From Polyangiaceae bacterium (GTDB lineage: Bacteria; Myxococcota_A; Polyangia; Polyangiales; Polyangiaceae), in NCBI GenBank assembly GCA_025453595.1, contig JALOQB010000015.1, forward strand, positions 1 through 37,920: a stretch of DNA of 37,920 nt, written 5' to 3'. This document shows, piece by piece, positions 12,515 to 16,046 of this stretch. Numbering within the stretch: the stretch's first letter is position 1; each line of letters begins with the position of its first letter. Both the position numbers and the translations under genes were made by a program. Under the pieces are notes generated by a model. The model had not been told where the DNA came from. It saw only the letters and a list, made by a program, of their open reading frames with translations, and searched no databases.

Positions 12515-13422
12515 AACAGACCGTAGGCGAAGAACCCCGGCAGGAACGACGCCAGCGAGGAGGACGAGGCCATCGCCCCGTAGGCCACCGCGTAGAGCAA
12601 CCAGCCCAGCATCATGCACCGGGCGCGCCCGATCCGATCCGCGAGGAGCCCCCCCGGGTAGCCCGCCATCGCCCGCACGCCGTTGAGCACCGCCCACAGC
12701 AGCGCGACCCGGGCCGTGGAGGCGCCCAGCTCTTCCATACGCCGCAGCAGGAAGAGATCGCTGGTGTTGACGACGGAGAAGAGGCCCAGGATCAGCAGGT
12801 AGCTCCGCAGCGCGCCAGGCGGGGGCGTGACCGTGTCTGCCGGGCGCGTCGAGGGCGGCGTGGGCTCTTCTCGCACGAAGAACCAGAGCGTGGCCACGGC
12901 GAGGAGGCCCGGCACCACGCTGGCGACCAGCACCTTGTGCACGTCCCCCGCCCACCACCAGAGCCCGGCCCACACCAGCAGCGGCCCCAGCGTTGCCCCC
13001 AGGTTATCCATCGCCCTGTGGAAACCGAAGGTCGCCGCGCTGCGCTCCCGCGAGGAGCTCGCCGCCAGGAGCGCGTCCCGGGGGCTGGACCGGAGCCCCT
13101 TGCCGATCCGGTCCAGAAACCGCACCGCCACCAGCTGCCAGGGCGCCGCCGCCAGCACCACCAGCGGCCTCGCCAGGTTCGACAGCGCGTAGCCCGCCAG
13201 CGCCAGCGGCTTGCGCCGGTGCGCCTTGTCCGACAGCTTCCCCGCGACCAGCTTGAGCACCGCCGCCGTCGCGTCCCCTACCCCCTCGATGGCCCCGAGC
13301 CACCAGGCCCCGGCCCCCAGCACCGCCACCAGCCTCGGCAGCAGCGGGTACACCATCTCGCTGGCCATGTCCGTGAACAGACTGACCAGACCCAGCGCGA
13401 CCACAACCCGAGGGAGCCTCAA
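12268..13422 (-). CDS. Major facilitator superfamily transporter
   Basis: About 384 residues and 12 predicted helices. It has the conserved opening SLFTDMASEMVYPLLP, motif A as GKLSDKAHRRKP after helix 2, DRIGKGLRSSPRDAL and FGFHRAMDNLGATLGPLL in the first half, and GGLLADRIGRAR as the second-half motif A. This marks a widespread proton-linked MFS subgroup of uncertain substrate. The start is unsure: the frame is open to 13749, but that would overlap the divergent lipoprotein gene with Arg/Gly shadow sequence. The likely start is the TTG at 13422 (L-R-L-P-R-V-V), preceded by a GGTGG; a GTG at ~13404 is an alternative. Confidence 0.85.
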   Translation of the reverse strand: MRLPRVVVALGLVSLFTDMASEMVYPLLPRLVAVLGAGAWWLGAIEGVGDATAAVLKLVAGKLSDKAHRRKPLALAGYALSNLARPLVVLAAAPWQLVAVRFLDRIGKGLRSSPRDALLAASSSRERSAATFGFHRAMDNLGATLGPLLVWAGLWWWAGDVHKVLVASVVPGLLAVATLWFFVREEPTPPSTRPADTVTPPPGALRSYLLILGLFSVVNTSDLFLLRRMEELGASTARVALLWAVLNGVRAMAGYPGGLLADRIGRARCMMLGWLLYAVAYGAMASSSSLASFLPGFFAYGLFYGFTEGAERAIVASLAPRSVLGAAFGRFHLVTGIALLPSNLLFGLAWDRWGGPVCLAASAAGALLALGGLALWARRHPLDS

Positions 13423-13538: not shown

Positions 13539-14054
13539 GTGCGACGCCTCCTGCTCCTCGCCCTCCTCGTCCTCCCCGCCTGCCGCGAGCACCATGGCCA
13601 CGACCACGGCCACGGCCATGGCCACGCACCGCCGGCGGCCTCCGCCGACCCCCTCGCCGATGTCGCTCGCGTCCACGGCGGCTCGGGCCCCTGGGCCGTC
13701 GCCGGCTACCGCATGGGCCAGTTCGCCCTCCGCAAGCTCGACCTGCCACGACAGAGCTTCGACCTCGACGTCACCCACCGGGGCCCCATGGAACCTCAAT
13801 ATGCCTGCGTGGCCGACGGAGCCTCCGCGGCGACCGGGGCCAGCCTGGGCAAGGTGAACCTGAGGCTGGAGGAGGCGCCGGTCGACGGCGTCGTGACGAT
13901 CTACAAGAACAGGAGGACGGGGCAGACGGTCGCGCTGCGGCCCACCACAGCCTTCAAGCAGCGCTTCCTGAACGTGCCGCGACCCGAGCTGGGCAAGGCC
14001 GGCGCCCAGGTCCTGACCCTCAAGGACGAGGAGATCTTCGAGGAGGCGCCCTGA
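13539..14054 (+). CDS. His-rich lipoprotein with FmdE-like domain
   Basis: A 171-residue protein with a GTG start and lipoprotein signal MRRLLLLALLVLPAC, followed by a metal-binding-looking run, HHGHDHGHGHGH. The rest resembles the FmdE (formylmethanofuran dehydrogenase subunit E) fold: VHGGSGPWAVAGYRMGQFAL matches the HGH-CPG-xxxGYRMG opening, though here the Cys is lost, and YACVADGASAATGASLGKVNL matches the C-x-DA...TG-T-GK-NL core. By its lipid anchor it lies outside the cytoplasm, so it cannot be a methanofuran enzyme subunit; metal or cofactor binding is an inference. The P450 gene starts 30 nt downstream and is probably co-transcribed. It is divergent from the MFS gene. Confidence 0.82.
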   Translation: MRRLLLLALLVLPACREHHGHDHGHGHGHAPPAASADPLADVARVHGGSGPWAVAGYRMGQFALRKLDLPRQSFDLDVTHRGPMEPQYACVADGASAATGASLGKVNLRLEEAPVDGVVTIYKNRRTGQTVALRPTTAFKQRFLNVPRPELGKAGAQVLTLKDEEIFEEAP

Positions 14055-14084
14055 CCGGGCCTCTACAGGCAGAGGAACCACAAC

Positions 14085-15530
14085 ATGCGTTACGAAGAGA
14101 TGCCGCAGCTCCCGGCCCGCGGCTGGGCCGGGAACATCGCCGACCTGGTGGAAGACCGGCTGGGTCTGTTGCGCAAGCTGAGCCTCCGCGAGGAGCTGCT
14201 GCGCGGCCGGGGCCTGTACCTGCCGCTGGTGTTCGTGAACGGCCCCCGGGCCGCCCACGAGGTGCTGGTCGAGAAGCCTCGCGCCTTCGAGAAATCCCCC
14301 GGGTTGCGCCTGCTCCTTCACTACTTCGCGGGTCAGGGCCTGTTCACCAGCGAGGGAGACCTGTGGAAGCGGCAGCGGAGGCTGATGGCCCCGCTGTTCA
14401 ATCCAGGAGCGCTCCAGCAGTACGCGGCCTCGATGAACCGCTGCGCGCTGCGCGCGGCGGGGCGGTGGCAGGACGGGCAGCACCTCGACCTCGCCCACGA
14501 GATGACCCGGATCACCATGGCCGTGGTGGGCGAGACCCTCTTCGGCGCCGACACCTTCGAGGAGGCGGACGACCTCGGAGAGGCGCTGACCACCGCGCTC
14601 CAGTGGACCAACGACCGGCTGGGCTCTCGCCGGCTTCTGCTCCACGTGCTCCTGCAAGATGTGGCTCGCGCCGTCGAGCCCCGGGCCCCGGCGCCGCTCC
14701 GGGGGCCGCTCCACCGGCTCCAGGAGCGGCTCAACGAGCCCTTTCTCCTGGAGGGCGCCCGATCGCCGACGCTGCAGGGCGCCATCGCACGCCTGGACGC
14801 CCGGGTGCAGGAGATGATCGACGAGCGACGGCGCGACCGCGAGGCCCACCGGGATCTGCTGACCAGGCTCCTCGACGCTCGTGACGAGGAGGACGCCGAG
14901 GATCAGGGCATGAGCGATCGGCAGGTGCGCGACGAGGCCCTCACCCTCTTCATCGCGGGGCACGAGACCACCGCAACGGCCCTCGCCTGGAGCTTCTACC
15001 TGCTGGCTCGCCACCCTGATCTCCTCGCCCGCGCGCAGCAGGAGGCCGATGCCTTCGAGGGGGACGGCCCCTCTCGCTACGAACCCGAGCGCCTCGCCTT
15101 CCTCACCCGCGTCTTCAAGGAGTCGCTGCGCCTCTACCCTCCGGTGGTGCTCCTGCCCAAGCGTACCCTCCAGGAGGTCGAGATCGGGGGCTACACCCTG
15201 TCCCCCAGGACCCTGGTGTTCATCAGCCCCTATACCCTCCACTATCGCCCCGAAATCTTCCCGGATCCGGACCGTTTTGACCCCGACCGGTGGCTCCCTG
15301 AACAGGAGGCCCGGCGGCCCCGCTCTTCCTTCTTGCCCTTCGGCGCTGGCCCCCGCGTCTGCATCGGCAACCACTTCGCCATGATGGAAGGCCCCCTCCT
15401 CATGGCGACCCTGCTGCGCAAATTTCGCATCCAGATCGACCCACGGCGCGAGATCTTGCCGGACGACTTCGCCACCCTGCGTCCCGCCGGGGGGGTCCCC
15501 GCGGTTGTCACCTTGCGCGCCACCTCCTGA
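14085..15530 (+). CDS. Cytochrome P450
   Basis: A 481-residue soluble P450. It has WKRQR in helix C, AGHETT (291-296) in helix I for oxygen activation, ESLR (346-349) as the K-helix ExxR, and FGAGPRVCIGNHF with Cys426 as haem ligand. No N-terminal membrane anchor and no fused reductase are present, so it needs external redox partners, none of which are in the window. The AGHETT pattern and length fit fatty-acid or terpenoid-type bacterial P450s more than macrolide ones, but the substrate cannot be read. A purine-rich stretch (AGAGGAACC) upstream of the ATG serves as ribosome site. It follows the FmdE-like lipoprotein gene. Confidence 0.95.
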   Translation: MRYEEMPQLPARGWAGNIADLVEDRLGLLRKLSLREELLRGRGLYLPLVFVNGPRAAHEVLVEKPRAFEKSPGLRLLLHYFAGQGLFTSEGDLWKRQRRLMAPLFNPGALQQYAASMNRCALRAAGRWQDGQHLDLAHEMTRITMAVVGETLFGADTFEEADDLGEALTTALQWTNDRLGSRRLLLHVLLQDVARAVEPRAPAPLRGPLHRLQERLNEPFLLEGARSPTLQGAIARLDARVQEMIDERRRDREAHRDLLTRLLDARDEEDAEDQGMSDRQVRDEALTLFIAGHETTATALAWSFYLLARHPDLLARAQQEADAFEGDGPSRYEPERLAFLTRVFKESLRLYPPVVLLPKRTLQEVEIGGYTLSPRTLVFISPYTLHYRPEIFPDPDRFDPDRWLPEQEARRPRSSFLPFGAGPRVCIGNHFAMMEGPLLMATLLRKFRIQIDPRREILPDDFATLRPAGGVPAVVTLRATS

Positions 15531-15606: not shown

Positions 15607-15638
15607 AGCTGGTCCAGGGATTGCTAATTTTGCGGAGC

Positions 15639-16046
15639 ATGAAGGCGATCCCGAAGATCAACAAGTACATGACCACCAGCCCCATCACCGTCGGCAAGGA
15701 TCAGACGCTTGCCTACGCGCACAAGGTCCTGCGTGAGCATCACATCCGGCACCTGCCGGTCCTCGACGGGGGCCACCTGGTGGGCATCATCTCCGATCGC
15801 GACCTCAGCCTGGTCGAGACCCTGAAGGACGTGGACCCCCAGAAGGTCACCGTCGAGGACGCCATGACCCCTTCCCCCTTCACCGTCGCCCCCGAGGCCT
15901 CCCTCGACGAGGTGGTCGCCGAGATGGCCGAGAAGAAGTTTGGCTCTGCCGTCGTCGTCGATAACAACAAGGTCGTCGGGGTCTTCACCACCATCGACGC
16001 CATGAGCGCCTTCGCCGAGCTGCTTCACACCCGCCTCAAGGGCTGA
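15639..16046 (+). CDS. CBS-domain pair protein
   Basis: A 135-residue protein made of two CBS motifs (~8-62 and ~72-130): MTTSPITVGKDQTLAYAHKVLREHHIRHLPVLDGG...GIISDRDL and MTPSPFTVAPEASLDEVVAEMAEKKFGSAVVVDNN...VGVFTTIDA. Such stand-alone Bateman modules bind adenine nucleotides and act as energy or ligand sensors; the partner is unknown. The start was chosen at the ATG with GCGGAG 4 nt upstream rather than a TTG six codons earlier. Its stop is followed by a weak inverted repeat, ACCGC/GCGGT at 16050-16068, between convergent genes. Confidence 0.93.
   Translation: MKAIPKINKYMTTSPITVGKDQTLAYAHKVLREHHIRHLPVLDGGHLVGIISDRDLSLVETLKDVDPQKVTVEDAMTPSPFTVAPEASLDEVVAEMAEKKFGSAVVVDNNKVVGVFTTIDAMSAFAELLHTRLKG

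Follow-up and report, generated by a model that had tools for sequence, protein, structure and literature searches.

The window, by which we mean the whole 37,920-nucleotide stretch of DNA analyzed (contig C6 of a 7.65-Mb genome in 570 contigs), carries a gene whose modeled product has the FmdE fold and which, by its sequence, belongs to a distinct, mostly exported-looking branch of FmdE proteins. The fold is familiar from methane-making microbes. We tentatively propose, at close to even chances, that the protein is a transition-metal binder or buffer of the cell envelope whose metal site would have been rebuilt. The cytochrome P450 encoded just downstream is, on present evidence, no partner of it. 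By the FmdE-like gene, the nearest relatives of the window genome are Polyangiaceae (Myxococcota). The features discussed below are collected in Table 1.

TABLE 1. Features of the FmdE-like gene and its downstream neighbor (window positions)
Feature	Positions	Strand	Basis
Predicted exported FmdE-fold protein, 171 aa, GTG start	13539..14054	+	PF02663, AF2 model, structure match to 2gvi
Putative signal peptide with lipobox-like LPAC, Cys15 being the last residue; atypical Pro at -2	13539..13583	+	Heuristic; relatives
His-Gly run HHGHDHGHGHGH in flexible linker; low-complexity DNA with 6/12-bp repeat	13590..13625	+	
HGGSGP, residues 46 to 51, where canonical FmdE has its HGHxCP metal motif; His46 is still there, the second His and the Cys are not	13674..13691	+	
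His80, invariant in the 49-row subfamily	13776..13778	+	
Cys90-x-x-Asp93, equivalent of Cys55/Asp58 in 2glz	13806..13817	+	Alignment; ligand roles as given in the available part of PMC2954224
Cytochrome P450, neighbor, not a conserved unit	14085..15530	+	PF00067, E 1.5e-83

The gene product has the FmdE fold

Upstream of the assigned start, the gene's own open frame contains no further ATG, GTG, or TTG codon. Residues 45 to 168 of the product matched PF02663 with an E value of 6.7e-16 and a score of 59 bits, against a curated cutoff of 22.9. The AF2 model built from 49 sequences had a pLDDT of 89.4 overall and of about 98 over the domain; an earlier model from seven sequences had reached 80.8, and the linker region was of low confidence in both. 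In a Foldseek search with the model, the PDB matches below 0.001 were FmdE structures only. VIA-align likewise placed the three solved FmdE proteins first, namely, 2gvi (Z 15.4 over 133 residues, 2.3 Å, 23% identity), 2glz (Z 14.2 over 128 residues, 2.6 Å), and 3d00 (Z 11.5 over 123 residues, 3.1 Å), the first unrelated chain following at Z 6.3. Fold matches to dihydrodipicolinate reductase, QSOX, phosphoglycerate dehydrogenase, and fumarase were rejected as background. The first-pass annotation had called the domain FmdE-like and had named an unrelated fold as the outcome that would speak against this; with the curated cutoff exceeded, solved FmdE structures well ahead of the other matches, and a predicted fold that is that of FmdE, the assignment holds.

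A patchy branch of the FmdE family

A protein search of 59 close genomes, the window's included, found the FmdE-like gene in seven of them, plus one spurious low-complexity match. Scanning the genomes of 84,980 species with the patterns HG[GA][AS]GP[WF][AV]V and [VP]Q[YF][SAT]C[VI]ADG yielded 44 loci, which were mostly from Myxococcota, with five planctomycete, three cyanobacterial, and one acidobacterial locus, a few that could not be placed, and one labeled Comamonas. These loci together with the window sequence, G020, G032, G373, and G369 gave the 49 rows used throughout, and in a tree they separated from four canonical rows with a support of 100/99. The locus labeled Comamonas sp. KCTC 72670 (L050) grouped with Corallococcus in the tree, and its label may be wrong.

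The subfamily is patchily distributed: a clear member was present in at least 4 of 377 sampled Myxococcota genomes, a lower bound since the first look scored only nine candidates per genome, and a fifth genome gave a weak match in a locus of the canonical type. In the literature, judged mainly from abstracts, we found no description of an exported or His-rich FmdE protein; as far as the abstracts show, the branch is an undescribed variant of a known family.

Predicted export and lipid anchor

Lipid anchoring of the window protein is plausible, given its strong hydrophobic stretch and the features of its relatives. Its LPAC box fails the strict lipobox pattern owing to the Pro at -2; Cys15 was invariant in an alignment of seven sequences. 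By a home-made heuristic (not SignalP) applied to the 49 rows, 30 had a strict lipobox, 2 (the window protein among them) a relaxed one, 16 a Sec-like start, and 1 none of these; a hydrophobic, exported-looking start was thus found in 48 rows and a lipobox-like Cys in 32, which by this heuristic makes lipid anchoring the norm in the branch. Nor is export confined to the branch with the HGG motif, as indicated by L025 (G336), a protein of the same class, which has a lipoprotein-like start with a lipobox-like box before an FmdE domain with the canonical motif intact (FHGHLC) and which differs from the window protein also in having no His run. Further FmdE proteins of the phylum had exported-looking starts as well, which means that the window gene stands out in neither export nor lipidation. 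Of the earlier view that a lipid-anchored FmdE domain is unusual, the anchor itself stands as probable, but its rarity does not.

A His-rich linker, mainly in one lineage

The run HHGHDHGHGHGH has 7 His in 12 residues, a density that was never reached when the protein was shuffled 20,000 times and that compares with a maximum of 6 among 308 neighboring genes. The His run, already pointed out in the first pass, is thus not a product of chance. The DNA beneath it is a short tandem repeat, and the run may have arisen by repeat slippage. Linker length and His content varied widely among the 49 rows, and 11 linkers had four or more His; 9 of these 11 fell in a single 10-row Polyangiaceae cluster with modest support (84/82). 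Since the other 38 rows have no His-rich linker, the tether would lie outside the core function of the protein.

A putatively remodeled metal site

In 2glz and 2gvi, both His and the Cys of the HGHxC motif, together with a second Cys, coordinate Zn or Zn/Ni; 3d00 lacks the first His and the Cys of that motif and has no metal at the site, as described in the available part of PMC2954224. In a profile alignment to 2gvi, HGHKCP lay opposite HGgaGP of our family profile and the second Cys opposite Cys90, which means that both His17 and Cys19 (2glz numbering) are missing; the fourth ligand, Cys55 of 2glz, is retained as C90. The loss of the HGH-C cysteine noticed in the first pass is therefore real, and it extends to the second His, which had gone unnamed. 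All 49 rows share the motif HG-x-x-G, the window sequence reading VHGGSG, and the FHGHxC of the 2glz/2gvi type is absent. This absence leaves the membership in PF02663 intact, for 3d00 is also described, in the part of its report available, as having lost the motif.

The first His (His46) and Asp93 were found in 49 of 49 rows, as was Gly at the position of the lost Cys, and position 90 was Cys in 47 rows and Ser in 2; Arg58 was likewise conserved. Because 44 of the loci had been fetched by the two peptide patterns, part of the conservation seen at His46, Gly50, and Cys90 is built in. That of His80 is not, as this residue lies outside both patterns; it was His in 49/49 subfamily rows versus 0/6 canonical ones, and in the model it sits in the strand preceding the helix with Cys90. 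His80 would thus be a candidate for completing a new metal site with His46 and Cys90, although the split from canonical FmdE is a single evolutionary event and the case for compensation by His80 has a sample size of one.

Each solved relative resembles the window protein in a different respect. The single-domain protein 2glz of Desulfitobacterium hafniense shares the fold, two metal-site residues (a His and a Cys), and the absence of a zinc finger, but has the metal-bound HGHxC where the window protein has HG-x-x-G, a predicted export signal, and a His-rich linker. The best structural match, 2gvi of Thermoplasma acidophilum, differs in its C-terminal zinc finger and in its two additional ligands in the N-terminal domain (NTD), and the window protein is, by prediction, exported. 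The protein of Syntrophus aciditrophicus, 3d00, is alike in having lost two of the four ligands, as far as its available description goes, but the pair differs: the first His and the HGHxC Cys there, the second His and the HGHxC Cys here. Unlike the window protein, 3d00 keeps a zinc finger.

These comparisons leave a serious rival to a metal-binding role, doubtful as we consider it: an exported protein of the FmdE fold in which metal use has been lost, whose conserved groove would bind an organic ligand or another protein and whose His run would be a neutral repeat expansion. The loss of two metal ligands, for which 3d00 offers a metal-free precedent, speaks for such a protein, as do the large groove of the solved FmdE dimers (both points as given in the available text on these structures), the variability of the linker, and the repeat DNA beneath the run. 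It fits less well with the retention of His46 in every row and of Cys90 in nearly all, or with the clustering of the His-rich linkers in one lineage, which is not a random distribution.

That the protein is an enzyme facing the periplasm, with Cys90 in the FmdE groove serving as its nucleophile, seems improbable to us. An unexplained density in 2gvi, 1.8 Å from the equivalent Cys61, was considered by its authors to be consistent with a thioester (PMC2954224, available part), and Cys90, Asp93, Arg58, and His80 are all conserved; the same part of that paper, however, gives no reaction for an FmdE-fold protein, and two of our rows carry Ser in place of the presumed nucleophile.

The cytochrome P450 is a neighbor in one genome

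The P450 gene, whose product contains the heme motif FGAGPRVCIG, begins 30 bp after the FmdE-like gene on the same strand, and the close link of the two had been singled out as unexpected. A tblastn search with the window P450 at an E value of 0.01 found its self-match in the window and no match in the other 46 subfamily loci covered (represented by 50 records, since four contigs had been fetched twice; L027 and L030 were outside this test). Four of the 46 loci extended only about 1.1 to 1.4 kb downstream and several had little sequence upstream; a P450 gene directly downstream would still be partly visible in them. A scan of the same loci for the heme motif with an open-frame filter returned the window P450 and one chance match without ExxR. 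In the single genome of the same genus (84% complete), a mevalonate-decarboxylase-like gene follows the FmdE-like gene, and a search of this genome turned up no close relative of the P450.

Close relatives of the P450 (47 to 58% identity) were present in 12 other genomes, 10 of which had no FmdE-like gene, and in the remaining two (G025 and G029) the genes were on different contigs. Among the 59 genomes, 7 had the FmdE-like gene, 13 a close P450 relative, and 3 both, a co-occurrence not above chance (Fisher P = 0.17, or 0.36 without the window's genome). None of the 19 other window genes tested was found in six regions around P450 relatives. P450 family matches occurred at eight places in the window genome, which makes an accidental P450 neighbor unremarkable. 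Between positions 13300 and 16200, a scan found no promoter-like site and one terminator-like site, which was inside the P450 gene and at about the level of shuffled sequence.

The cross-genome comparison suggested by the first-pass annotation thus went against a conserved pair, and the adjacency looks like an accident of one genome. A functional FmdE-P450 pair, e.g., one handling heme or metal for the P450, is very improbable: the short same-strand gap would allow cotranscription in the window genome, but the 46 other loci, the gene order in the same genus, and the chance-level co-occurrence all argue otherwise. The P450 is removed as a lead and is, on present evidence, unrelated to the FmdE-like protein.

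No recurrent partner in the neighborhood

By Pfam, the other genes around the pair are a divergent MFS gene, one for an alpha/beta hydrolase, and one for a small protein with two CBS domains (positions 15636 to 16046, 105 bp after the P450 gene). A distant CBS match near an FmdE-like gene was seen in only one other locus, L064, on the same contig as L011. We clustered the neighboring ORFs of 47 loci and tallied Pfam families for the 308 neighboring genes in three sets; neither the clustering nor the 25 commonest families per set, a depth at which rare partners can be missed, contained a partner family recurring across lineages. What recurred was lineage bound: a kynureninase-FmdE-AhpC/TSA-Lgt block in L056, L061, L063, L066, and L069 (with a glutaredoxin-like gene in L061), an SPFH-FmdE-S58 peptidase block in a few loci, and a DUF1304/TetR block in Corallococcus. 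Subunits of fmd/fwd were absent from the immediate neighbors in the window, and none of the Fmd/Fwd families was among the 25 commonest per set near the relatives' genes. We found nothing to connect the window protein with molybdenum or tungsten, the metals with which FmdE-like domains had been associated at the outset.

Several neighbors in single genomes are linked to metals. In the same-genus genome, a LarC-like nickel insertion protein whose start is strongly enriched in His (L038:5509-6804) is encoded about 5 kb from the FmdE-like gene, beside an AIR-carboxylase-domain gene (L038:4658-5494) that we take to be LarB-like. In Minicystis rosea, genes for an MbnP-domain protein and a di-haem peroxidase (MauG/CCP) and a third gene lie just upstream (L039:6209-9614). 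A TonB-dependent receptor is encoded 255 bp downstream in a cyanobacterial MAG, and CobU is encoded 1.4 kb from the acidobacterial gene. As many neighbors were inspected and none of these associations recurred, we give them little weight.

Proposed function

The protein would lie on the periplasmic face of the membrane, where its domain, a dimer in the solved relatives, may bind a transition metal (Zn, Ni, or Cu, for example). The site would combine the surviving canonical ligands, His46 and Cys90, with His80, which is specific to the branch. The disordered His-Gly tether of the Polyangiaceae cluster could bind further metal loosely and thereby gather or buffer it close to the site in the domain. 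The P450 would have no share in this. Such a role is favored by the conservation of the two surviving ligands of a pocket that holds Zn or Zn/Ni in the solved proteins (PMC2954224, available part), by the invariance of His80, by the exported-looking starts of nearly all rows, by the concentration of His-rich linkers in one cluster, and by the metal-related neighbors scattered over single genomes. It is disfavored by the loss of half of the four ligands, since 3d00, with the same number lost, is described in that source as metal free there, by the Ser at position 90 in two rows, and by the failure of the metal-linked neighbors to recur. A broader proposal, which we consider rather unlikely, is that the exported branch in Myxococcota, Planctomycetota, and Cyanobacteriota forms a new class of periplasmic metallochaperones or buffers, with the site rebuilt as His46/His80/Cys90 and the tether feeding it metal in one lineage.

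In the literature that we found, no function is established for the FmdE fold itself. With its simple architecture and no tie to methanogenesis genes, the exported branch would lend itself to studies of what this fold does and of whether other residues can be recruited to rebuild its metal site.
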